From Cryptosporidium bovis (lineage: Eukaryota; Apicomplexa; Conoidasida; Eucoccidiorida; Cryptosporidiidae), in the NCBI GenBank assembly GCA_009768925.2, contig VHIT02000027.1:248001-312000 (forward strand): a stretch of 64,000 bases of DNA, read 5' to 3'. This document shows, in pieces, positions 35,886 to 48,753 of the stretch. The first letter of the stretch is position 1; every line of letters starts with the position of its first letter. The translations under genes were made by a program, and so were the position numbers. The notes beneath the pieces are model-generated. The model made no database searches. It was not told the origin of the DNA and saw nothing but the letters and a program-made list of their open reading frames with translations.

Positions 35886-36075
35886 TTTTAATATTCTTCA
35901 TCAAATAAAACAATTACTATTACTTTCATGTTAAAACATTTGATCTTAGTTGTTTTAGTATTTTTCACTTTTAAATTATTATTAATGAACATTTTCTTTT
36001 GTTATCGTTGGTAACAACATGTTTACGTACTTATTGCTATAGTCAATATATTGGAATAAACAAATGTAAATATAC

Positions 36076-36486
36076 TTATATTACACTTTTCCTAATATTC
36101 TTGATTGATGTTCCTATTATTTCACCTCCAAGAATAACCTCATCCATTAATTTTATCAGTTTTTTATTCTTATATATTACATCTACATCAGTTGGTTCAC
36201 GAGAATTGTTACCAAATGCTTCGTTTATTAACTGTAATGTTGCTAATATCATTAATATATTTTCACTGAAATCGACCCCTGCAATAAAAAACATCTTGGG
36301 ATACCTCTTAAATATGATTCTACTTTCGTCCAATGTGAAGTGCGACAAATCATCCTTTTCCAAATACGACAATCTTTCCTTAATCGTCTCCTGAACTTTC
36401 TTTCTTTTTTCTATATTGTCCGAGTTATACCATCTTGAGAATATTGTTTTCCCACTCAAATTCTGAATTATAAAAAAATGAATCAT
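36076..36486 (-). CDS. clathrin adaptor small (sigma) subunit-like
   Basis: 136 residues from the ATG at 36486. That start is chosen because MIHFFIIQNLSGKTIFSRWY matches the exact N-terminus of AP sigma subunits (longin fold: M-I-x-F-x-L-x-Q-N-x-x-G-K-x-R-x-x-K-W-Y); an open stretch of 17 codons upstream starts with no counterpart. RIIFKRYPKMFFIAGVD and DEVILGGEIIGTS match the conserved middle and C-terminal segments. The region between (EAFGNNSREPTDVDVIYKN) is divergent, so AP-1, AP-2, AP-3 or AP-4 cannot be told apart with confidence; the GGEI-x-x-TS ending leans to AP-1. Role: core subunit of a tetrameric adaptor for vesicle coat assembly at TGN or endosome. Confidence 0.8.
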   Translation of the reverse strand: MIHFFIIQNLSGKTIFSRWYNSDNIEKRKKVQETIKERLSYLEKDDLSHFTLDESRIIFKRYPKMFFIAGVDFSENILMILATLQLINEAFGNNSREPTDVDVIYKNKKLIKLMDEVILGGEIIGTSIKNIRKSVI

Positions 36487-37073
36487 TTCTGATTTTGTTA
36501 TGCTAAAAATGTACCATGCACATATATTTTGTAACAAAAATGTGTTTTATTAACCTATTTGCTTCTCTTTTCTTTCTTGCTATATTAGTACAAAAAAACC
36601 AAACTCCTTACCTTATTCGGGTATCTAATAAACCAAAGAAAGAAAATAGAATGTGAAAAGGGTGCATATATATTATTACATTGTTATTATTGTTAAATTG
36701 TATTTTGACAATATTCAAAATATTTCATCTCTTAAATAAACCAAAATTAGTATATTATCATTTAATTTGCACATTAAATGCTGCTTTTGCTTCCCCACAC
36801 GTGCCGCCATACGTAATATAAATATATTTGCATATGTATTTAAAACTAATCTTTTAAAAATATAAAATCCAGTTTTACAAATACTATTTATTTATTTGTA
36901 TTTAGTAAATTATGGAAACAATTTTGCCCTTGAAAAAATAATGATTTGGTGAGGCTAAATATAATAAAATAATATATATAAAAAACAAAGTTAAGTCTTG
37001 ATCTTTACCAGAGGAAGATACTACTAAATTAAGGTATATTGATAGAGTAGGTGCATACTAATAATTAGGAATA
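36487..37073. other. divergent promoter sigma adaptor / DNA ligase I
   Basis: CACACGTGCCGCC near 36796-36808 contains a CACGTG core and a GC-rich flank in otherwise AT-rich DNA. Nothing else recognised. Confidence 0.4.
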
Positions 37074-39548
37074 ATGGAAATGTGCAAGAGTGTTAATCTA
37101 TTTGACGATAATCAGTGTGTAAATGAAACTGAAGATTCGATAATAGACTCGAAGGAATCTGCTCTAGGGGAGAATATATTATTGAATAGCACAACCGGGA
37201 AAGAATTAATTAAAATGAAAGAGAATGAGGTGAAAAAGAGTAAAAAAATAAGAATTGAACATCAGGAAAAGTTGAAATTTAATAGTAATGATGTGAATTT
37301 TAAGGTTGAAGACAATAACTCAAATGAAAAAATTGAAAAAGAAACAGATCGCAGTAACGAGAAAGAAAATAATCAAAGTTCTGGTGTAACAAACAATAAA
37401 TCAAGTACAAAAAATCAAAATGTGAATATATTTTCACCATTTTCAATAGAAGTAAAAAATAGCAATAATAATATACAAAGTCCATTATTTAACCCAAGTA
37501 ATGTGACAAAAGAGTTGATAATGATTAAGAAGAAAAATGAGTCGATCGCGTTTTCAATATTAACAGATACTTTGACAAGTATAGAAAGACTAAAAGGGAG
37601 TGGATCAGGAAGCAAAAAAGGATGCATAGTTATTTTAGCAAATTTATTTAGGCTGATAATTCACCATAACCCACAGGATTTGGTTGGTGCGGTATATATA
37701 TGTATGAATAAAGTGGCACCTGATTATGAAGGACGAGAGTCTGGAGTTGGAGAGTCGCTATTAATAAAATGCATATCAGAATCATCTGACAAATCAGAGA
37801 AAAAAATTAAAGAAGATCAAATAAGTGGTAAATATGAGGATTTAGGTGAAATAGCCTCTTTATATAAAAAACAAATAAAACTATTATTTGAACCACCAAG
37901 ATTAACAATTGATGAAGTATATCGTGAATTGTATTCATTAACGGACATATCAGGTAAGAATTCACAACAGGTAAAAAAGGATAAGATAAAAAAACTACTT
38001 GTATCAGGAAAACGAGAGGAAGTAAAATTTATTGTGCGCTTCTTACAAGGGAGACTTAGAGTTGGTATTCAACAAACATCAGTATATCAAGCGTTGGCAA
38101 ATGCATTTGTATTAACAAGAAATAATGATATAGTTAGTTATTCAGATTATAGATTATTGGAAAAAGAAAAAAAAGTGTACAATGATATATATGAATTAGA
38201 TCAAATAGTTGTAAATACTGAAAAATTAATAAAAGATTGTTTATCTCAGCTACCTAATATAGAAAAAATAATTAATTCAGCGTTGAATTGTGTAGAATTA
38301 AATGATATAGAAAAGGAATGCAAATTAACAACTGGTATACCTTGCGAACCAATGCTTGCTAAGCCAACGAAAGGTATAAAGGAAGTACTTGACCGTTTTG
38401 AAAACATATTATTTACGGCAGAGTATAAATATGACGGTGAAAGAGCACAAATACATGTGACTAGTGATAATAACAATAATAGGGTGATAAAAATATTTAC
38501 GAGAAATTTAGAATCTGCTACAGAAAGGTATCCCGATTTAGTTAAATACTTGAATGAGTCATTGAGTCCGGAAGTTAAAGACTGTATATTGGATTCTGAG
38601 GTAGTTGCATATTCTCATGAAGATAATAAGATACTTCCATTTCAAGTGCTAAACACAAGAAAAAGAAAGAATGTAACAATGGACGATATACAGACAAATA
38701 TATGTCTACTTGTTTTTGACTGTATGAAGTATAATAATGAGTCGTTATTAAAAAAATCATTATTTGAAAGGAGGCAATATATGAAGAAATGTATATGTGA
38801 TAACAATTTTAAATACATAAAATTTGCTACAAGTTGCGAAACAGATAAAATAGAAATGTTGGATTCATTTTTGTCTGAATCTATTGAGAATAGTTGTGAA
38901 GGCTTGATGATCAAAACATTACATGAAAATGCAACTTATGAACCTTCAAAAAGATCGCTAAACTGGTTAAAAATTAAAAAAGACTATATAGATGGGTTAA
39001 TGGATAGTATAGATGTAGTACCTATTGCAGCTTGTTATGGTAAAGGCAAAAGAAGTGGTTTGTTTGGTACATTTTTATTAGCTGTTTACAATAGTCAAGA
39101 CGAGGTATATGAAACAATATGTAAAGCCGGAACAGGATTTAGTGATGAATTACTTCAATTGCTATTTAATAATTTAAAAGATCATATTTTAACTGAAGGA
39201 ATCCCAAAAAATTACTATAGATATGATTATTCCTCTATTTCACTTAAACAAGATGTTTGGTTTGAACCCAAATTTGTTTGGGAAATTAAAGGGGCTGATT
39301 TGTCTCTTTCGCCTGTACATACAGCAGCTCGTGGTATTGTTGATGAGAACAGGGGTATTGGCCTTAGATTTCCGAGATTTATTCGTATTAGAGATGATAA
39401 ATCTCCAGAACAGTCTACTTGTTCTATGCAGATAATTGAGTTATATCGCGATCAATTCCGCCATACCTCAAAAACTGATTTACATGAAAATAAGGACATT
39501 TTGGTGGATGGCGTTGATGATTATGAGGAAAATGGTGAGAATCCTTAA
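37074..39548 (+). CDS. LIG1: ATP-dependent DNA ligase I
   Basis: 824 residues. The N-terminal 150 residues are charged and Asn-rich, as in the unstructured region of LIG1; no clear PIP box is seen at the very start. The DNA-binding domain (about 155-400) ends in LTTGIPCEPMLAKPT. The nucleotidyltransferase motif I is EYKYDGERAQIH with the AMP-accepting Lys452. Motif III, IV and V segments follow (CILDSEVVAY, SCEGLMIKTL, LNWLKIKKDYID), then the OB-fold with KRSGLFGTFLLAVYN and RGIGLRFPRFIRIRDDKSPEQST. Role: seals Okazaki fragments and repair nicks in the nucleus. The protein is single-exon and of normal family length. The C-terminus has a short acidic tail. Confidence 0.96.
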   Translation: MEMCKSVNLFDDNQCVNETEDSIIDSKESALGENILLNSTTGKELIKMKENEVKKSKKIRIEHQEKLKFNSNDVNFKVEDNNSNEKIEKETDRSNEKENNQSSGVTNNKSSTKNQNVNIFSPFSIEVKNSNNNIQSPLFNPSNVTKELIMIKKKNESIAFSILTDTLTSIERLKGSGSGSKKGCIVILANLFRLIIHHNPQDLVGAVYICMNKVAPDYEGRESGVGESLLIKCISESSDKSEKKIKEDQISGKYEDLGEIASLYKKQIKLLFEPPRLTIDEVYRELYSLTDISGKNSQQVKKDKIKKLLVSGKREEVKFIVRFLQGRLRVGIQQTSVYQALANAFVLTRNNDIVSYSDYRLLEKEKKVYNDIYELDQIVVNTEKLIKDCLSQLPNIEKIINSALNCVELNDIEKECKLTTGIPCEPMLAKPTKGIKEVLDRFENILFTAEYKYDGERAQIHVTSDNNNNRVIKIFTRNLESATERYPDLVKYLNESLSPEVKDCILDSEVVAYSHEDNKILPFQVLNTRKRKNVTMDDIQTNICLLVFDCMKYNNESLLKKSLFERRQYMKKCICDNNFKYIKFATSCETDKIEMLDSFLSESIENSCEGLMIKTLHENATYEPSKRSLNWLKIKKDYIDGLMDSIDVVPIAACYGKGKRSGLFGTFLLAVYNSQDEVYETICKAGTGFSDELLQLLFNNLKDHILTEGIPKNYYRYDYSSISLKQDVWFEPKFVWEIKGADLSLSPVHTAARGIVDENRGIGLRFPRFIRIRDDKSPEQSTCSMQIIELYRDQFRHTSKTDLHENKDILVDGVDDYEENGENP

Positions 39549-39935
39549 AAGAAATGAATTTTTATCAATACATTTTTTTTCTGTTAATTTGCATATTTTA
39601 ATATAAAGGACAATTCAATAAGTCATGCAGTTTTTTATTCTAATTCACCTCTTTCCGGATTTGTTGTTATCAATAAACTCAATACTTTCAACACAAACAA
39701 AAAGTGAGAATATGAATTTGTAGATATTTAAGTAAATATAATATATACGTGAGCATAAACTATAAAGTTTTCACTAACACCTGTTTTTAATATTTGGAAG
39801 AGATTGGGAAAAACCAAAAAGGTGCAAATAATGATCATTTTTTCGTAGTTAAAATGGCAAAACTACAATTATTGAACTGTTGCTGTAGTGATTGTAGTAT
39901 TTGAGCATGAAGTATCATTGTAAATATGAATAAAA
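39549..39935. other. convergent intergenic region
   Basis: 387 bp between ligase I and the rhodanese/PUB gene ends. No feature seen apart from AT-rich DNA; the ligase stop is followed by a T-rich run near 39571-39582. Confidence 0.4.
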
Positions 39936-41660
39936 TTATGTTACATTGAGAGTTTGAATAATGGAGTGTTTCGACACCTCTTGTTGTATATTAGATAGTA
40001 TGATTTTAATTTTAAATAAGTCGGATTCAACAGGTAATCTAAGTTTTTTATTTCCATCTTTTTCGTCAATAACAAATCCAGCGAGTTTGAGTAATTCGAC
40101 ACCTTGTTTGTATTGGCAAACTGTTTGGTTAAATACTGAATTATCAAAATGTACAACTCTATATAGTTGATTGTTTGGAAAAGAGAGTACGTTTTCAAGT
40201 AATATATATGTATTTCTAAGACATTGAAATAACTTATAATTATCATTTTCTTCTAGATTGTTGTAATTACTTGTTGAGTCGTGATAAGTACCTTTGTTAG
40301 CATCAGAATTTGCACTTGACTGATTTATAATCTCATTCAGTAATATTTGTACTTGGTTTTCAAATTCAATGTTTTTTATTTGTCTAATAGAGGAAAAATC
40401 TATATCTGGACGGTAAGGTGTGCTGTTGTTTCTATCTTCAGACGAATTATATTTACTATAAATGTCATTAAGTAAATCAATCATATAACTATCGAAAACA
40501 AGACCAATTTTTCTTTCCTTCAAGAAACTAATAACATCTGTAGGTCTGAATCCGATTTCAACTAAAAAAAGAGCAACAATATTCATTGAGTGGTAGTCAC
40601 CCGAAGAATCCACTAGTAATACAGACTTTCTGAAATGATGACATTGTCTTATAATATTAACTGCTGACCAATAATTGGGGTTGTTGGTTCCATAACATGG
40701 AATACTGTAATATTTAATTTTAGCATTATTTGGAAAATGAAATATTTCTGGATTGTTTGTAAGATTAACAATTTTAGATATTGAAAATTTATCTCTATAT
40801 TTATCCCAATTATTTTGTGATAGAATCCCAATATCGCCTGTCAATACACAAAATGAAGTTAATAATGGGAACAATGGAATTGTTTCACACGGAAATCTAA
40901 CAGGTAACAAGTTATCAGATAATTCTGAGCATAATGGATTTTCATCTATACAACAATCGTACCTAGGACTTAACGATGCAAATCCTCCTGCTAATATGTA
41001 TATCATCTCTGGTTTGCAATTACAACAATTCATTATTTCCAAAAATGTCTTAGATTCATGTGAAACCCTATCTCCTCTAATAGACGCATTACCTTCCCAT
41101 AGGTGGTCGAATAAAACTACAATTTTATCGTTTATTTGTTCCAATAACCAATTATTTATTGTTTTAGAGTACCTTGCTATCGCGTCCAAGTGACTATTTC
41201 CATTAGAGTTGTTTATTAAAATGTTACTGTTGCATTCGTACAAAGAGGTGCTTTTCCTCGTGAAGCTTTTAAACGGCTGAATAGCACCTATTACTGTTCT
41301 TTTCATTAATGCTCCTTTAGAGGCAAGTCTTGCCATTGCTTCCTCTTCCTCTGAGTTCGCCTCCAATACCTTGACATCATAATAAAAACTTTGGGAATCC
41401 ACAAATGTTATCCCATAATTACCAAAAGGATTTGAACTCTTTGATTGTGACCAAAGATTATAAAACATACTTGGAGTTATATATCTAGCTTTATAATGCG
41501 TATCTTCTACTTGTATCTCTTTCCACTGAAATGTCAAGTCATCGAGATTCCTCCAGGGCTTTATTATCCTCTCCCTTACTGACTTGTCTGTAAAAACTGG
41601 TGGACTATGCGGCCTGTTTTCATCTTTTCCCGGGTTTCCTTTGGAACATATATGACCCAT
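39936..41660 (-). CDS. acylated rhodanese / pseudo-DSP / PUB-domain protein
   Basis: 574 residues. MGHICSKG has Gly2 and Cys5, a typical dual myristoylation-palmitoylation start, so membrane anchoring is likely. Residues about 58-240 read as a rhodanese domain (YITPSMFYNLW, ITFVDSQ, KIVVLFDHLWEGNAS, and MIYILAGGFASLSPRY), like the CH2 domain of MAP-kinase phosphatases. Residues about 258-390 resemble a dual-specificity phosphatase fold (LTGDIGILSQNNWDKYRD, IVNLTNNPE, IKYYSIPCYGTN, then LLVDSSGDYHS). At the signature HCxxGxxRS the Cys is Asp351 and the Arg His357, so it should be inactive, as in MK-STYX. Residues about 474-560 look like a PUB domain (LFQCLRNTYILLENVLSFPNNQLYRVV...ELLKLAGF), a module that binds the tail of Cdc48/p97. 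I know of no standard protein with this combination. Confidence 0.68.
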   Translation of the reverse strand: MGHICSKGNPGKDENRPHSPPVFTDKSVRERIIKPWRNLDDLTFQWKEIQVEDTHYKARYITPSMFYNLWSQSKSSNPFGNYGITFVDSQSFYYDVKVLEANSEEEEAMARLASKGALMKRTVIGAIQPFKSFTRKSTSLYECNSNILINNSNGNSHLDAIARYSKTINNWLLEQINDKIVVLFDHLWEGNASIRGDRVSHESKTFLEIMNCCNCKPEMIYILAGGFASLSPRYDCCIDENPLCSELSDNLLPVRFPCETIPLFPLLTSFCVLTGDIGILSQNNWDKYRDKFSISKIVNLTNNPEIFHFPNNAKIKYYSIPCYGTNNPNYWSAVNIIRQCHHFRKSVLLVDSSGDYHSMNIVALFLVEIGFRPTDVISFLKERKIGLVFDSYMIDLLNDIYSKYNSSEDRNNSTPYRPDIDFSSIRQIKNIEFENQVQILLNEIINQSSANSDANKGTYHDSTSNYNNLEENDNYKLFQCLRNTYILLENVLSFPNNQLYRVVHFDNSVFNQTVCQYKQGVELLKLAGFVIDEKDGNKKLRLPVESDLFKIKIILSNIQQEVSKHSIIQTLNVT

Positions 41661-41774
41661 TATTTATTCTCTACACTACTCTTTCTTCCCTTAATGTTCA
41701 CAAACAAATTGTAGCCTTTACACTTTCTACTATTATAAATTCAATTATTTTATTAAACGGTACTATTATTGACA

Positions 41775-41827
41775 GTATATGTATGTATATACATATATAT
41801 ACATATATATGTATACATGTACATATT
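41775..41827. repeat. TA/TATG/CATA microsatellite
   Basis: Alternating TATG, TATA and CATA units, partly palindromic. Simple repeat likely to vary in length. Confidence 0.7.
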
Positions 41828-42077
41828 TAACTTTTTCAAATCATAAACCAAAGTTTAGTTAGACACACGGAGAAATTCTATTTACACAACCTCGCTGTTC
41901 ATTTAGGTAAATTGTACTATTTCAGTCGGAAAGTCATTTAACGAGAAAAGTTATTCCTTTCTTCGTTTGTCTTTTTTTAAAATTTAATTACATATATATG
42001 CTTATTTATTTACTTATCTATATGAAAAATAAAGAAAAGACCACTTGGGCTTGTTTGACTATTAAAGATATTTCCTG

Positions 42078-42096
42078 TTTGGCGGGAATGCATGCA
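42078..42096 (+). promoter_or_regulatory. composite E2F-like plus TGCATGCA element
   Basis: TTTGGCGGGAATGCATGCA: TTTGGCGGGAA (42078-42088) matches the E2F/DP consensus and is directly followed by TGCATGCA (42089-42096), the palindrome bound by an ApiAP2 factor in Plasmodium. Another TGCATGCA lies at 42186-42193. It is about 860 bp before the IleRS start and 420 bp from the opposite gene start. Confidence 0.55.
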
Positions 42097-42185
42097 ATTG
42101 AGGATATTTTTTTATATAACCCGGTATTATTGCCGAGTGTGATTTTTTTCTCGGTACGCAATTTAATATTTTTTCAGATGTATGA

Positions 42186-42193
42186 TGCATGCA
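42186..42193. promoter_or_regulatory. second TGCATGCA palindrome
   Basis: Same 8-mer as in the composite element 97 bp to the left. ApiAP2-like site by sequence; binding is inference. Confidence 0.45.
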
Positions 42194-42953
42194 ATAAAAA
42201 AATGTATATAATACATATAATATGTACGTGAACTTAGGATTTCAGAGTACTGGCCCAACGAAAGGACCTAATATTAGTAAGCAGCAATTATTGCACTGTC
42301 TTTTACTGTTCGAACGGGACTAGTTTATAAAAATTGGCTTATTAGTTGTTTTATCCTTTATTTGGTGTTTTTTGACTCCCTCTTTTAGTTTATTAATGTG
42401 CTATACATTCACATAACGGGTCTATATCTCTGATATGACACGTCTTTTGTGTCATAGTTGGTAACTCATGCAAAACGTTCATTTTTAGATAGTGGTGAGG
42501 CCTGGCGGACAAGTCAGGAGGGTCAAAGGATTGAGGAGGTTGTGAATTTATATGTTCAGTTGACGTGGTGATAGCTAATGAGAGGCTAACAGTACCGAGT
42601 ATTGTTTTTTGTTGCTACTTTGGGTTTAAGTTTAAATAACTATTTATTTAAGAGTTGAATCGCAATTTTTCTGAGTTACTATTTTTCAACACTTCGGCGC
42701 TGCTTAATAAAGGCTAAATAATTCCTTTATATGCTTTCCACATTATATTTGTCTTGAGAAATATTTGAATCATTAATAACAGGAATAGTAAAATATATAA
42801 TATAAAATAAAGAAATAGTGAATAATAGCAAACAGAATACGTTATTTAGCATCAAGATTTTGAGAAATTGAATAACGGTGTTTTTCAAAAAATATAAGTG
42901 TTAGTATCAGTGTGTATAGGTTTGTTGTATAATCACTAAATACTGGTGAGGAG

Positions 42954-45900
42954 ATGAATACATTTAGAGCAGTTTCAGAGAGGCCAGATTTTCCAAAATT
43001 GGAGGAGGAGATTCTGGAATATTGGAAAAAGATAGGAATATTAGATTTAGTACTTAAAGAAACAAAAGGAAGACCAAATTACTCATTTTATGACGGTCCT
43101 CCATTTGCAACGGGTTTGCCTCATTATGGGCATATCTTGGCAGGAACGATAAAAGATATCGTGACAAGATATGCAACTCAAAAAGGTTTTTATTGCGAAA
43201 GGAGATTTGGATGGGATTGTCATGGACTACCTGTAGAGCATGAAATAGATAAGAAACTAAATATAACATCCAAGGAGGATGTATTAAAAATGGGAATAGG
43301 TGAATATAATGAAGCTTGCAGATCAATAGTTTTAAGATATACACAAGAATGGAGATCAACAATAGAAAGAGTAGGAAGATTAATAGACTTCGATAATGGC
43401 TACCGTACAATGGATAAAGGGTTTATGCAAACAGTTTGGTGGGTGTTTAAGCAGCTATTTGAAAAGAATCTGGTGTATAGAGCCTATAGAGTGATGCCGT
43501 ATTCAACAGCTTGTTCCACACCACTGTCTAATTTTGAGTGTAATCTCAACTACAAGGATGTGAGCGATCCATCAGTAATACTAACGTTTCCAAATTTGGA
43601 GGATCAAAAAATACAGTATTTGGCCTGGACAACAACACCATGGACCTTACCGTCAAATATTGGAATAGCAGTGAACCCAGAATTAAAGTATGTTTATTTC
43701 AAGCCGGAAAATTCCGAAAATACTTACGTTGTATGTGAATCTCGTTTGGAATGGGTCTTATCAGAACTTAAAATAAGTAAATATCAAATTGTGTCTGATT
43801 GTCTTGGTGCAGAATTACACAATGTAAGATATATTCCATTATTTGATTACTTTAAACAGCACAAGTCAAGTGGTAAATTTTGGAGAATATTAGCAGATAG
43901 TTATGTTGTTGATAATGCAGGCACTGGTTTAGTGCAGATGGCACCTGCATTTGGTGAGGACGATTTTAGAGTTTGTGTTGAAAATGATTTAATAGATAGT
44001 CACGGAATCACATTGCCTTCTCCTATGGACGCTAATGGAAGGTTTACGGAGCCAGTAAACGACTTTATTGGCCTTTGGTTTAAAGATGCAGACAAACCCA
44101 TAAAACAATTTTTAAAAAAAAATGGGAGACTTTTGTCTGATAATACATGTGTACACTCATATCCATTTTGTTGGAGGTCGGACACTCCATTACAGTATAG
44201 GGCAGTCCCATCTTGGTTTATAAACGTAGAATCTTTAAAGGAAAAACTTGTACATAACAATTCATTAACCAATTGGGTTCCTAATTATGTTAAAGAAAAA
44301 AGATTTCATAATTGGTTGCAAGATGCAAGAGATTGGTGCGTGAGCAGGAACAGGTTTTGGGGGACTCCCATACCTATTTGGGTATCTGAAGATTACAGCG
44401 TAACAAAGTGTATTGGAAGCGTTGATGAACTTAAAAGTCTCGCTATCAATTTACCGGAAAACGAGGATATTAACGATTTACATCGTCATTTCATAGACAA
44501 AATCGAGATTAGAGATCCTAGAGGTGACTCTTATCCTCCTTTGAGGAGAATAGAAGAGGTCTTTGATTGTTGGTTTGAGTCAGGTTCAATGCCATACGCT
44601 TCAATAGAATACCCATTTAAAAATGAGAAAGAATTTGATCATTTATTCCCAGCTGACTTTGTAGGAGAAGGGCTGGACCAAACAAGAGGTTGGTTTTACA
44701 CGTTAATGGTTCTTTCCACTGCAATTTTCGACAAACCTGCATTTGAAAATGTAATAGTTAATGGCCTCGTTCTGGCTTCTGATGGAAAAAAGATGTCGAA
44801 AAGGCTTAAAAACTATCCGGATCCCATTGAAATCGTTGATAAATATGGAGCGGATGCCTTGAGGATATTCTTAATAAACTCTCCAGTAGTCAGAGCCGAA
44901 ACTCTTAGATTCAAAGAGGAAGGTGTTAAAGATATTGTTAAAGATGTATTATTGCCTTGGTATCATTGCTATAGATTTTTCGTGCAGGAAGCCACTAGAT
45001 TTGAAAACACAAATAGTATTAGCTTTACTTCAAATAAAGATGTAATAAATACCTGTAAAAATGTTATGGATATTTGGATTTACTCTGAAGCTCAATCCCT
45101 ATTAAAATACGTCAAGACCGAAATGGATCAATATAAGCTTTATTCCGTTACTCCGCGTTTAATATCATTCTTAGACATACTTTGCAATTGGTATGTTCGT
45201 TTAAATAGGGATAGAATGCGAGGAGCATTTGGCTTTGAAGAAACGAAATCCTCACTTGAAATGTTATTTGAGATTCTAATCCTAACTGTTAAACTGCTTG
45301 CTCCAATCGCTCCGTTTACATGTGAGATACTATATTCAAATCTTAAGAATGCAATTGGTAATCAAGTAGATAGAAAAGAGACAGTTCACTTGCTTTATTT
45401 GCCTCAAGTGAATGAGAAATTTATCAATAAGGAGATAGAAGATAAAATTTTACAACTTAGAGAGATTATTGTTATGGGGCGAGCAATGAGAGAAAAAAAG
45501 AAGGTGGGACTTAAAACTCCAATTAAAAGTATATGCATTATTCACAAAGATACATCAGTCTTGGAATACTTCATTGAGGCTGGATTAATTAACTATATTA
45601 AAGATGAGTTAAATACAATTGAGGTTATTGCAGATAAAAATTTTGAATATGATAAAATAACCAAAATGGTGGCTACGCCCAACTTCAAGGTACTTGGATC
45701 TAAACTTGGAAAATCTATGAAGGAAGTAACAAAATATATCAAAAATATGTCAAATGAGGATATTCAAAAATTCATTTCAGAAGGATTCGTTTCCATATGT
45801 GGATTTGAACTTAATTCGGAAGAAATCATTGTGCAAACTGTAATTGATAATTCCTTGACCAATTCAAAATCTGATTTCCTATACGAGGGAAGTTCGCAAT

Positions 45901-46229
45901 TTGTTATTGGAATTGATTTTACATTTGATATTGAGTTCGAGAAAATGGCTTATGCTAGAGAACTAGCTAATAAAATTCAGAAAATTAGAAAAGAGAAGAA
46001 TATGGATCCAGATGCAAATGTTACTATATGCTTGGAACTCATTTCAAACAATGATAAAAGTTTATTTTCTTCTGTTATCGAGTCATATAATGACTATCTT
46101 TACAAAATTATAAGAAAGCCAATAGAAGAATATAATATTTCAAAAATTAACCAGAATAATATCATTTTTGACTATGATATCGAGGTTTCTGCTGACAGAA
46201 TTAAAGTAACAGTAGTTTGTAACAACTAA
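42954..46229 (+). CDS. cytosolic isoleucyl-tRNA synthetase
   Basis: 1091 residues. Class I signature HYGH at 57-60 in FATGLPHYGHILAGTIKDI, the usual form in eukaryotic IleRS, followed by RRFGWDCHGLPVEHEIDKKL. The editing (CP1) domain includes the TTTPWTLPSNIG loop. Then DVWFESG-like EVFDCWFESGSMPYA, the LDQTRGWFYTL motif and KMSKR at 613-617. The anticodon-binding domain follows (YRFFVQEATRF... WYVRLNRDRMRGAFG) with a long C-terminal extension as in eukaryotic cytosolic enzymes. No organelle-targeting leader. Role: charges tRNA-Ile and edits Val. Single-exon, normal length; identification is secure. Confidence 0.98.
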   Translation: MNTFRAVSERPDFPKLEEEILEYWKKIGILDLVLKETKGRPNYSFYDGPPFATGLPHYGHILAGTIKDIVTRYATQKGFYCERRFGWDCHGLPVEHEIDKKLNITSKEDVLKMGIGEYNEACRSIVLRYTQEWRSTIERVGRLIDFDNGYRTMDKGFMQTVWWVFKQLFEKNLVYRAYRVMPYSTACSTPLSNFECNLNYKDVSDPSVILTFPNLEDQKIQYLAWTTTPWTLPSNIGIAVNPELKYVYFKPENSENTYVVCESRLEWVLSELKISKYQIVSDCLGAELHNVRYIPLFDYFKQHKSSGKFWRILADSYVVDNAGTGLVQMAPAFGEDDFRVCVENDLIDSHGITLPSPMDANGRFTEPVNDFIGLWFKDADKPIKQFLKKNGRLLSDNTCVHSYPFCWRSDTPLQYRAVPSWFINVESLKEKLVHNNSLTNWVPNYVKEKRFHNWLQDARDWCVSRNRFWGTPIPIWVSEDYSVTKCIGSVDELKSLAINLPENEDINDLHRHFIDKIEIRDPRGDSYPPLRRIEEVFDCWFESGSMPYASIEYPFKNEKEFDHLFPADFVGEGLDQTRGWFYTLMVLSTAIFDKPAFENVIVNGLVLASDGKKMSKRLKNYPDPIEIVDKYGADALRIFLINSPVVRAETLRFKEEGVKDIVKDVLLPWYHCYRFFVQEATRFENTNSISFTSNKDVINTCKNVMDIWIYSEAQSLLKYVKTEMDQYKLYSVTPRLISFLDILCNWYVRLNRDRMRGAFGFEETKSSLEMLFEILILTVKLLAPIAPFTCEILYSNLKNAIGNQVDRKETVHLLYLPQVNEKFINKEIEDKILQLREIIVMGRAMREKKKVGLKTPIKSICIIHKDTSVLEYFIEAGLINYIKDELNTIEVIADKNFEYDKITKMVATPNFKVLGSKLGKSMKEVTKYIKNMSNEDIQKFISEGFVSICGFELNSEEIIVQTVIDNSLTNSKSDFLYEGSSQFVIGIDFTFDIEFEKMAYARELANKIQKIRKEKNMDPDANVTICLELISNNDKSLFSSVIESYNDYLYKIIRKPIEEYNISKINQNNIIFDYDIEVSADRIKVTVVCNN

Positions 46230-47346
46230 AATTGATAAAATTGATTATTTTACTCTATTTTAAGTGATCATTTAAAAAATGTTTCAATTTACCTACCCTA
46301 CAGTTAATATTATTTATTTTCTGTTAAAGAAAGACTTGCAAATTCAGATTACCTATTCAAACTAAATTTCGGTAGTTTTTTTTGTCACTTAGTTGCATTT
46401 CAGATGCATGTATATACACTCTTCTCCGATTCTAACAGATGTTGCCTGAAGGTAAGACTTTTTTTCTAAATCCTGCGATCTAGTCTATCCCCGAAATTCA
46501 ACCCAAATAAATTGGTTGCAGTAAATACTTGTCCGGTAAACGAAAAAATGATGATATTTTCTATCTTTACTATAGAGAAATTTCACATTCACAATAAAAG
46601 TTTCATAAGTGAAACTAAATAACAAAGCAGAGGTAAATTAAAAGTAAAATGAATCCAAAAAATGAGTAAATATTCATTTAAATTTGAATATATCATTGTC
46701 ATTTCAAGACAGTAAAAAGGCATTTTAAGCGCGCACATGTTGTCTTGAAACTGGCGGTACCGTCAAATAAATATGCTGAACAAAAAAGGGTTAAAAAAGG
46801 TAAACAAAAGAAAAAAGTCCAAAAAAGAGATAAAAGGGAAACTGGACGAATAAAAAGAATAGCGAAAGGAAGAGAGAAGAAAGGCTCAACTTGCTAATAT
46901 ATAAAGTATTCGAGGCCAGAGATAGGCGAGACTACACTTCTTTAAAAGCGCAGGCAAAATACATTATATAATCAATATTTAATTATAGATTTTTATCACG
47001 GATAATTCGCCTCGTTTATTTTTTTATATAAGCAGGGATAATATATAAAAACATTCTTTTGATTTTTCTTTTGGTCATTTCAGGAAACTTAAGGCCGATT
47101 TTCAAATATAACTTTTAGATAGCAATACTTAATACAGCTACTATTGAAATTGTTATTAGCCATTATTGTTGTTAATACTGTTCACCATTCTTGTTAGGAC
47201 TATACTATAATATTTTTATACTTCAAGCTTATAATATTAACCTGTAGCAGAAGCTTAAATAATCAGTTACATAGCAGGGCGTAAAGTTGTAATACAGCAC
47301 TGATAAACAGCAGTAAAAAAAAGCAAGAGTTGCCAGTTAATAAAAA
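46230..47346. other. intergenic, upstream of Cbf5
   Basis: 1.1 kb between two plus-strand genes. GCGCGCACATGTTG near 46729-46742 and ACTGGCGGTACCGTCA near 46750-46765 are GC-rich islands; the latter includes a near match to GGCGGTAA. The purine-rich stretch 46790-46880 is A/G-biased. No gene or RNA recognised. Confidence 0.4.
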
Positions 47347-48753
47347 ATGGTAAAAAAGAAAGATAAATATATTTTAGAAGAAAATGAGAGCAATGAGTCA
47401 GTAATTTTACCAGAAAAAAAATCTCAACCAATTGATACATCGAACTGGCCATTACTTTTAAAAAATTATTCAAAACTAAATGTAAGAACTGGCCATTATA
47501 CCCCACTTCCATTTGGAAATTCACCATTAAACAGAAATTTAAGTGATTATTTGAGTTATGGTATAATAAACCTAGATAAACCGGCAAATCCATCTTCACA
47601 TGAGGTTGTTGCGTGGATAAAAAAAATACTGAGATGTGAAAAAACAGGTCATAGTGGTACGCTGGATCCTAAAGTAACCGGTTGTTTATTGGTGTGTTTA
47701 AATAGAGCAACTAGGTTGGTTAAATCGCAACAAAGCGCAGGAAAAGAATACGTATGCATTGTTAGATTTCATTCAGCTGTATCTGGAAGATCTGCTGTAG
47801 TAAGATGTCTAGAAACGCTTACAGGAGCCCTTTTCCAGAGACCACCGGTTATTTCTGCAGTTAAACGTCAACTTAGAGTACGTTCTGTGTATGAATCAAA
47901 GTTATTAGATTACGATGAGAATAGGAATCTTGCGGTTTTTTGGGCAAAATGTGAGGCAGGAACATATATACGTACAATGTGTGTTCATATGGGACTTTTA
48001 TTGGGAGTCGGAGCTCATATGCAAGAATTAAGGCGTGTTAGAAGCGGTTGTTTATCTGAGAACGACAACCTTGTTACTATGCATGACGTTTTGGATGCAC
48101 AGTATTTATTAGATAATTTTAGGGATGAGACCTATATAAGACGTATTGTATCTCCACTAGAATTGCTATTAACTGATATGCCAAGAATAGTCGTTAAAGA
48201 TTCTTGTGTAAACGCAATATGTTATGGAGCTAAGCTTATGATTCCTGGAGTTCTTAGATTTGATAATAATATTAATGTTGGCACAGAAATTGTTATGATG
48301 ACTACCAAAGGCGAGGCAATTGCCATTGGTATTGCACAAATGACTACCGCTGTCATTGCCTCTGTAGATCATGGTGTCGTGGCGACAATTAAGAGAGTTA
48401 TTATGGAAAGAGATACTTATGAAATGAGATGGGGGCATGGTCCAAGAGCAACTGAAAAGAAGAAACTAATTATTGGTGGAAAATTAGATAAACATGGTAA
48501 ACCAAATGATCAAACCCCTGAATCTTGGCTCAAATACGAAGGATACATCCCAACTTTAACGGGTGAACCTGATAACAACATCACTAATTCATCATCGTTA
48601 CCAGCCTTGGATGAAACCAAAAAAGAGGACAAAAAAAGAACATTAGATAACTCCAAAGATAGCGACTCAAGTCCAAGTAGTGAAAGTGATGGAGAGAAGA
48701 AATCCTCTAAAGAGAAATCAAAAAAGAAAAGAAAACATAGTAGAGATTATTGA
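47347..48753 (+). CDS. CBF5: H/ACA RNP pseudouridine synthase Cbf5/dyskerin
   Basis: 468 residues. The dyskerin-like N-terminus ([28 protein letters not shown]) leads to [24 protein letters not shown], and the TruB catalytic block [11 protein letters not shown] with catalytic Asp107. [10 protein letters not shown] and [13 protein letters not shown] are the further TruB motifs. A PUA domain follows (about 270-345, with [11 protein letters not shown]), and the Lys/Glu/Ser-rich tail ends in KKKRKHS, a likely nuclear/nucleolar signal. Role: catalyses RNA-guided pseudouridylation of rRNA and snRNA and stabilises H/ACA RNAs in nucleolus and Cajal-like bodies. Normal length for protists; identification is secure. 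Confidence 0.97.

Follow-up and report, generated by a model that had tools for sequence, protein, structure and literature searches.

What might a single protein do that begins with a lipidation signal, continues through a rhodanese-like domain and a dead dual-specificity phosphatase (DSP) domain, and ends, after a linker, in a PUB domain of the family that binds Cdc48/p97? The question is raised by a 574-amino-acid (aa) protein of Cryptosporidium bovis. The observation made in an earlier note, that a rhodanese domain, a dead phosphatase and a PUB domain occur together in this one protein, was confirmed by the analysis described here.

Gene organization and domain architecture

The protein is encoded by a complete open reading frame (ORF) that requires no intron and lies within the window, the whole stretch of 64,000 nucleotides that was analyzed. 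The features of the protein and its two flanking genes are collected in Table 1. AT-rich near-palindromic repeats occupy window positions 41777-41826, approximately 117-166 bp upstream of the start codon, and the other repeats near the gene are short, weak inverted pairs. No RNA family scored above the gathering score in positions 36000-48000, and an NCBIfam search with the 574-aa protein returned no match.

Table 1 Features of the 574-aa protein and its gene, with positions given for the window
Feature	Residues	Position	Strand	Remarks
DNA ligase gene		37074-39548	plus	flanking
Complete ORF	1-574	39936..41660	minus	574 aa
PUB domain	473-565	39966..40244	minus	Pfam PF09409, E=3.5e-11, and structure
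PIM-binding pocket	487-507	40140..40202	minus	mapped onto PNGase, UBXD1 and HOIP residues (PMC6995525, PMC4017264)
Linker	409-472	40245..40436	minus	4/64 positions invariant; includes helix 431-454; the structural match to PUB starts there, at residue 434
DSP fold of MKP type	258-408	40437..40889	minus	catalytic residues lost
Degenerate P-loop, D-S-S-G-D-Y-H for C-x-x-G-x-S-R	351-357	40590..40610	minus	10-sequence alignment
Rhodanese-like domain (CDC25/MKP type)	44-240	40941..41531	minus	no active-site Cys
Loop at the rhodanese active-site position, VLFDHLWEGNASIRGDRVSHES	182-203	41052..41117	minus	top-conserved stretch of the domain
Predicted N-myristoylation (G2) and S-palmitoylation (C5) signal, MGHICS	1-6	41643..41660	minus	10-sequence alignment
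Class I tRNA synthetase gene		42954-46229	plus	flanking

Structural comparison of the three domain regions, which the earlier note had proposed as a check, gave strong support for an MKP catalytic domain fold in residues 258-408 and for a PUB fold in residues ~434-564, where the best match was the p97-binding PUB domain of PNGase. Support was moderate for a fold resembling the MKP/CDC25 rhodanese domain in residues ~50-240. The protein thus shows the MKP-type architecture, in which an N-terminal CDC25/rhodanese-like domain is followed by a DUSP domain.

Conservation across Cryptosporidium

A database search with the window's protein returned 11 entries, counting all those listed at E-values up to 1: the protein itself, its counterparts in C. 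ryanae, chipmunk genotype I, C. ubiquitum, C. canis, C. felis and C. muris, two from C. hominis (one partial), and two further entries. The alignment used throughout comprised 10 sequences, including that of the window, and omitted P0010 (417 aa), the incomplete entry from C. hominis TU502. A profile search built from this alignment and extended to E=10 recovered the same 11 entries and no others; because the method requires shared 5-residue words, distant apicomplexan relatives may exist beyond these entries. The earlier note had held that absence from all other Cryptosporidium genomes would speak against its reading; orthologs were found in other Cryptosporidium taxa, and the whole architecture is present in all 10 aligned sequences. 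The gene is conserved between C. muris and C. hominis, and so far it is known in the genus Cryptosporidium only. Its name in C. parvum is presumed to be cgd3_3830, by inference from CHM_3g3830 of C. hominis.

The nine other proteins share 45-85% identity with that of C. bovis (84% for C. ryanae). By region, identity amounts to 56-90% in the rhodanese domain, 54-93% in the DSP domain, 15-57% in the linker and 36-80% in the PUB domain, the lowest among the three domains.

The N-terminal pattern M-G-x-x-C is fixed, with M1, G2 and C5 invariant in 10/10 sequences and S6 present in nine, C. muris having Leu6, against a background of just 6 invariant positions among the 33 at the N-terminus. N-termini with a Met-Gly start, Ser or Thr at position 6 and a nearby Cys are commonly myristoylated and palmitoylated, and the C. 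bovis sequence has all of these elements. Within the genus, mass spectrometry found both myristate and palmitate on C. parvum Cp23, a protein with Gly-Cys as its mature N-terminus (PMC5549699). Since the invariant G2 and C5 fit the common acylation pattern and Cp23 provides a precedent, a membrane anchor is likely for the 574-aa protein. The motif recognized in the earlier note holds across the alignment, as a predicted modification signal. None of the results favors the pellicle in particular, which the earlier note had named as a site alongside other membranes.

The rhodanese-like and DSP domains

Neither the rhodanese domain nor the DSP domain was detected by a Pfam sequence search of the 574-aa protein. 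Searches of the PDB by phmmer gave 11 matches, seven of them PUB chains and none a rhodanese or DSP chain, and a search with the full profile gave 14, of which 13 were PUB chains (best UBXD1, E=0.0024) and the remaining one RecO. Among the three matches obtained with the rhodanese profile (best E=0.12), none was a rhodanese, and Foldseek on the rhodanese-only model produced no match at E ≤ 0.001. Viral macrodomains and RNase H led the best 50 of 802 Foldseek rows (probability ≤0.30) and were discarded as noise, because VIA-align re-examination of the same candidates ranked rhodanese-type chains first. The top 11 of the 39 rows in the VIA-align list were rhodanese-like: eight are titled as rhodanese, CDC25 or MKP domains, and the remaining three are 4f67, 3fnj and 3flh, which we take to be rhodanese-like chains. 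Within the domain, the loop at the active-site position (residues 182-203) is invariant at 19 of 22 positions, compared with 89 of 197 across the domain, and is the best of 176 windows of equal length, its limits having been picked after viewing the alignment. At residues 131-137 (KSFTRKS), judged by eye to be the equivalent of the kinase-interaction motif, none of the 10 sequences has two consecutive Arg residues.

In the DSP domain, the HCX5R loop and the general-acid Asp of active MKPs are both missing as conserved elements. The replacements reported in the earlier note, Asp351 for the catalytic Cys and His357 for the loop Arg, were each recovered in 10/10 sequences, as were G354 and D355; the general-acid position is Asp in just one of the 10. 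Residues 348-361 form the most conserved 14-residue segment of the domain, with limits again chosen after inspection of the alignment, and residues 351-357 alone (4/7 invariant, P=0.20) do not rise above the domain background. A cystathionine-beta-synthase match spanning the P-loop in the PDB phmmer search (E=0.052) was taken as chance, since it was absent from the profile search. The earlier note had also described the phosphatase as substrate-reading. Loss of the phosphate-binding Arg, together with the gain of two invariant Asp residues in the loop, argues against the reading of phospho-substrates through this pocket.

The PUB domain and its pocket

The C-terminal assignment to the PUB family, also made in the earlier note, proved secure: the profile score exceeds the curated PF09409 cut-off in all 10 aligned sequences, that of C. 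bovis included, and the fold agrees. The pocket is altered. Six PUB residues that contact the Cdc48 tail were mapped, of which three are kept and three, corresponding to Y38, R55 and R64 of PNGase, are replaced in 10/10 sequences. The kept residues, N490, Y500 and N507, are invariant throughout, against 13 invariant positions among 93 in the PUB domain overall. In place of the Tyr that stacks on the tail tyrosine (PNGase Y38), the C. bovis protein has L487 (L, V, I or M in all sequences), so that the pocket core YxxN(x)9Y described in PMC6995525 lacks its first Tyr. The Lys or Arg facing the tail carboxylate (PNGase R55) is replaced by H504 (H, N or S in all sequences), which leaves the K/RxxN motif with its Asn (N507) and without its basic residue, and at the position of PNGase R64 the basic residue has become Thr (T or S in all sequences). 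Mutation of Arg55 in PNGase abolishes p97 binding, and HOIP Y82A abolishes OTULIN binding (PMC6995525, PMC4017264). Loss of the basic pocket residue has uneven consequences, strong in PNGase and just 3.5-fold in UBXD1 (PMC6995525). For UBXD1 and HOIP, dissociation constants for p97 are reported to lie near 10 uM (PMC6995525, PMC4017264).

Cdc48 and other PUB or rhodanese proteins of C. bovis

The C. bovis genome holds one CDC48_N gene, and its product ends in DDGDDLYS. Because this Cdc48 ends in DDLYS, the DDLY-type tail that p97/Cdc48-binding PUB domains recognize, it is available as a candidate partner. Both C. parvum and C. hominis are predicted to have orthologs of CDC48, Ufd1 and Npl4 (PMC2408969).

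Further PUB proteins are encoded in the same genome. A UBA-PUB protein (L001:1441-2394, in G000:C14:319088-322297, minus strand) lies on the same contig, some 32 kb away from the gene of the 574-aa protein, and has the complete five-residue Cdc48-type pocket; it looks the more obvious Cdc48 binder of the two. A PPPDE-type peptidase is fused to a PUB domain (L002:841-2064, G000:C31, plus strand) and shows a weak C-terminal UBA-like match below the Pfam cut-off. Another protein (L003:610-2043, G000:C13, minus strand) has a PUB domain alone by Pfam, with a C-terminal stretch that appears UBX-like by eye and a pocket lacking Y38, N41 and Y51. A weak PUB match below the cut-off, running across one in-frame TAA (L005:1501-1665, G000:C13:345507-345671), may represent a spliced or decayed PUB copy.

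A second C. bovis rhodanese protein, FG379_001055 (402 aa; L012:832-2040, in G000:C13:282338-285709, minus strand), has a Pfam rhodanese match at E=4.7e-6. Its protein, encoded in the same assembly as the window, is 100% identical to a C. bovis record, in line with the assignment of the genome to C. bovis. The region after the rhodanese match resembles a dead DSP by eye, with neither Cys nor Arg in the expected loop, and its C. ryanae counterpart carries the name 'dual specificity phosphatase'. Searching the PDB with a profile of these two proteins yielded five weak matches, the best to titin (E=0.017) and one to CDC25C (E=0.033 over 24 positions). A second rhodanese-DSP in C. bovis and C. ryanae is possible. 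Sequence kinship between FG379_001055 and the window's protein was not found by profile comparison (probability 2.2 over 18 columns around a GGF motif), and a two-sequence MAFFT alignment of them was not meaningful.

Proposed function and alternative explanations

We favor, tentatively and at somewhat less than even confidence, a scaffold peculiar to Cryptosporidium: a lipid-anchored pseudophosphatase that brings in Cdc48, or some other protein with a PIM, through its altered PUB domain. Myristate at G2 and palmitate at C5 would hold the protein on a cytosol-facing membrane, where the rhodanese-like and dead DSP domains would serve as an MKP/MK-STYX-like docking platform for a protein partner. 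With the catalytic Cys and Arg lost in every aligned copy, the protein should act by binding, the platform presumably working through its conserved loops rather than by catalysis or phosphate binding; conservation of residues 348-361 and 182-203 despite the dead loop is what would be expected of binding surfaces. The flexible linker would present the PUB domain, which would capture a short peptide of the PIM type (Asp-hydrophobic-Tyr); the tail of the parasite Cdc48 is the most plausible such peptide. Cdc48 is our first candidate for the PUB partner; given the changes in the pocket, a different ubiquitin-pathway protein with a PIM might take its place. As a result, a Cdc48/ubiquitin machine would be concentrated at the membrane, beside the partner of the platform. 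A more specific formulation, which we regard as rather doubtful, is that of a genus-specific membrane adaptor in which the dead MKP-like pair, with an invariant acidic D-x-x-G-D-x-H binding site, and a re-tuned PUB domain station a Cdc48/PIM machine at a lipid-defined membrane domain.

The altered pocket also bears on another explanation, in which the scaffold is the same and its PUB domain, no longer binding Cdc48, instead recognizes a PIM-like peptide lying within some other parasite protein, much as the HOIP PUB prefers OTULIN over p97 (PMC4017264). Absence in all 10 sequences of the basic residue that faces a free C-terminal carboxylate, with the Asn cornerstone N507 kept, is consistent with such a shift, as is the complete Cdc48-type pocket retained by the UBA-PUB protein of the same genome. 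The closest structural match remains a p97-binding PUB, however, and the C. bovis Cdc48 keeps its tail motif, and we consider a switch to internal peptides unlikely, if worth keeping in view.

Two further explanations place the function in the N-terminal half. The protein could be a MAP-kinase (MAPK) docking decoy, its rhodanese-like domain holding a MAPK as in MKPs and the dead DSP shielding it, with a secondary role for the PUB domain. Both N-terminal domains do match MKP structures, and pseudophosphatases are treated as MAPK regulators in PMC8622459. Docking by MKPs, however, requires consecutive arginines, and MK-STYX, which has none, is not reported to bind ERKs (PMC8907265). The region judged by eye to be equivalent in the Cryptosporidium proteins has no such pair, and we consider a decoy improbable. 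Alternatively, the D-x-x-G-D-x-H loop might be a new catalytic or metal-binding site with a different chemistry, an idea to which its four invariant residues, set inside the most conserved 14-residue segment, lend some appeal. Yet the seven residues of the loop are no more conserved than the domain around them, and Asp and His may just replace lost residues of a binding loop; we give this explanation very little credence.

Comparison with known systems

Searches of the open-licence literature for Cryptosporidium PUB, PUB with dual specificity phosphatase, PUB with pseudophosphatase, and cgd3_3830 found no description of such a protein; a match to Cryptosporidium and 'PUB domain' on calpains was unrelated. 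The literature consulted on the P. falciparum phosphatome, N-myristoyltransferase and Cdc48 likewise offered nothing specific to this gene. The claim that no protein of this order had been described thus stands for the full order within that literature, with the caveat that one C. felis record is already titled 'Protein-tyrosine phosphatase-like protein with PUB domain'. It does not stand for the N-terminal half, as a rhodanese domain followed by a dead or doubtful DUSP is the order of MK-STYX and PfMKP1.

Signaling in Cryptosporidium has been little studied. In the review PMC8949495, as far as excerpted, PfMKP1 has a rhodanese-like domain and then a DUSP-like one whose catalytic residues are poorly preserved, and is proposed as a possible pseudophosphatase; two RHOD DSPs are counted in P. 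falciparum and four in T. gondii, and C. parvum is given five DSPs, with the RHOD type not named. The Cryptosporidium protein shares the order of rhodanese and degraded DUSP with these apicomplexan RHOD DSPs and has in addition a PUB domain and a lipidation motif, neither of which is mentioned for them in those excerpts. Since Cryptosporidium has at least one rhodanese-DSP, the C. parvum phosphatome may need refining, and the gene of the 574-aa protein may or may not be among the five DSPs of the review. If the proposed scaffold is correct, it would link the MKP-type pseudophosphatase fold to the p97/PUB system, a link not found described in the open-licence literature, and would offer a testable pseudophosphatase-Cdc48/PUB connection in Cryptosporidium.

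To our knowledge, MKPs have no PUB domain, MK-STYX has neither a PUB domain nor a lipidation motif, and STYX has just one DUSP-like domain and no rhodanese domain, PUB domain or lipid motif. MK-STYX (STYXL1), in which the kinase-interaction motif is degenerate (PMC8907265), resembles the Cryptosporidium protein in its CH2/rhodanese domain and dead DUSP. MAP kinase phosphatases, DUSP10/MKP5 and DUSP16/MKP7 among them, have the catalytic Cys, Arg and Asp (PMC8907265), the first two of which the Cryptosporidium protein lacks. Replacement of the catalytic Cys, here by Asp351, is shared with the STYX/MK-STYX type; both STYX (HGX5R) and MK-STYX (FSX5R) are described as retaining the phosphate-loop Arg (PMC8907265), which is His357 in the Cryptosporidium protein. 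STYX also provides a pseudophosphatase with a tie to ubiquitin biology, through the F-box proteins FBXO31 and FBXW7. The PUB domains of PNGase, UBXD1 and HOIP are hosted by a glycanase, a UBX cofactor and an E3 ligase, respectively, whereas the Cryptosporidium host is a pseudophosphatase. The order of rhodanese and dead DUSP is thus already known, and what is new is the PUB domain and the probable lipid anchor.
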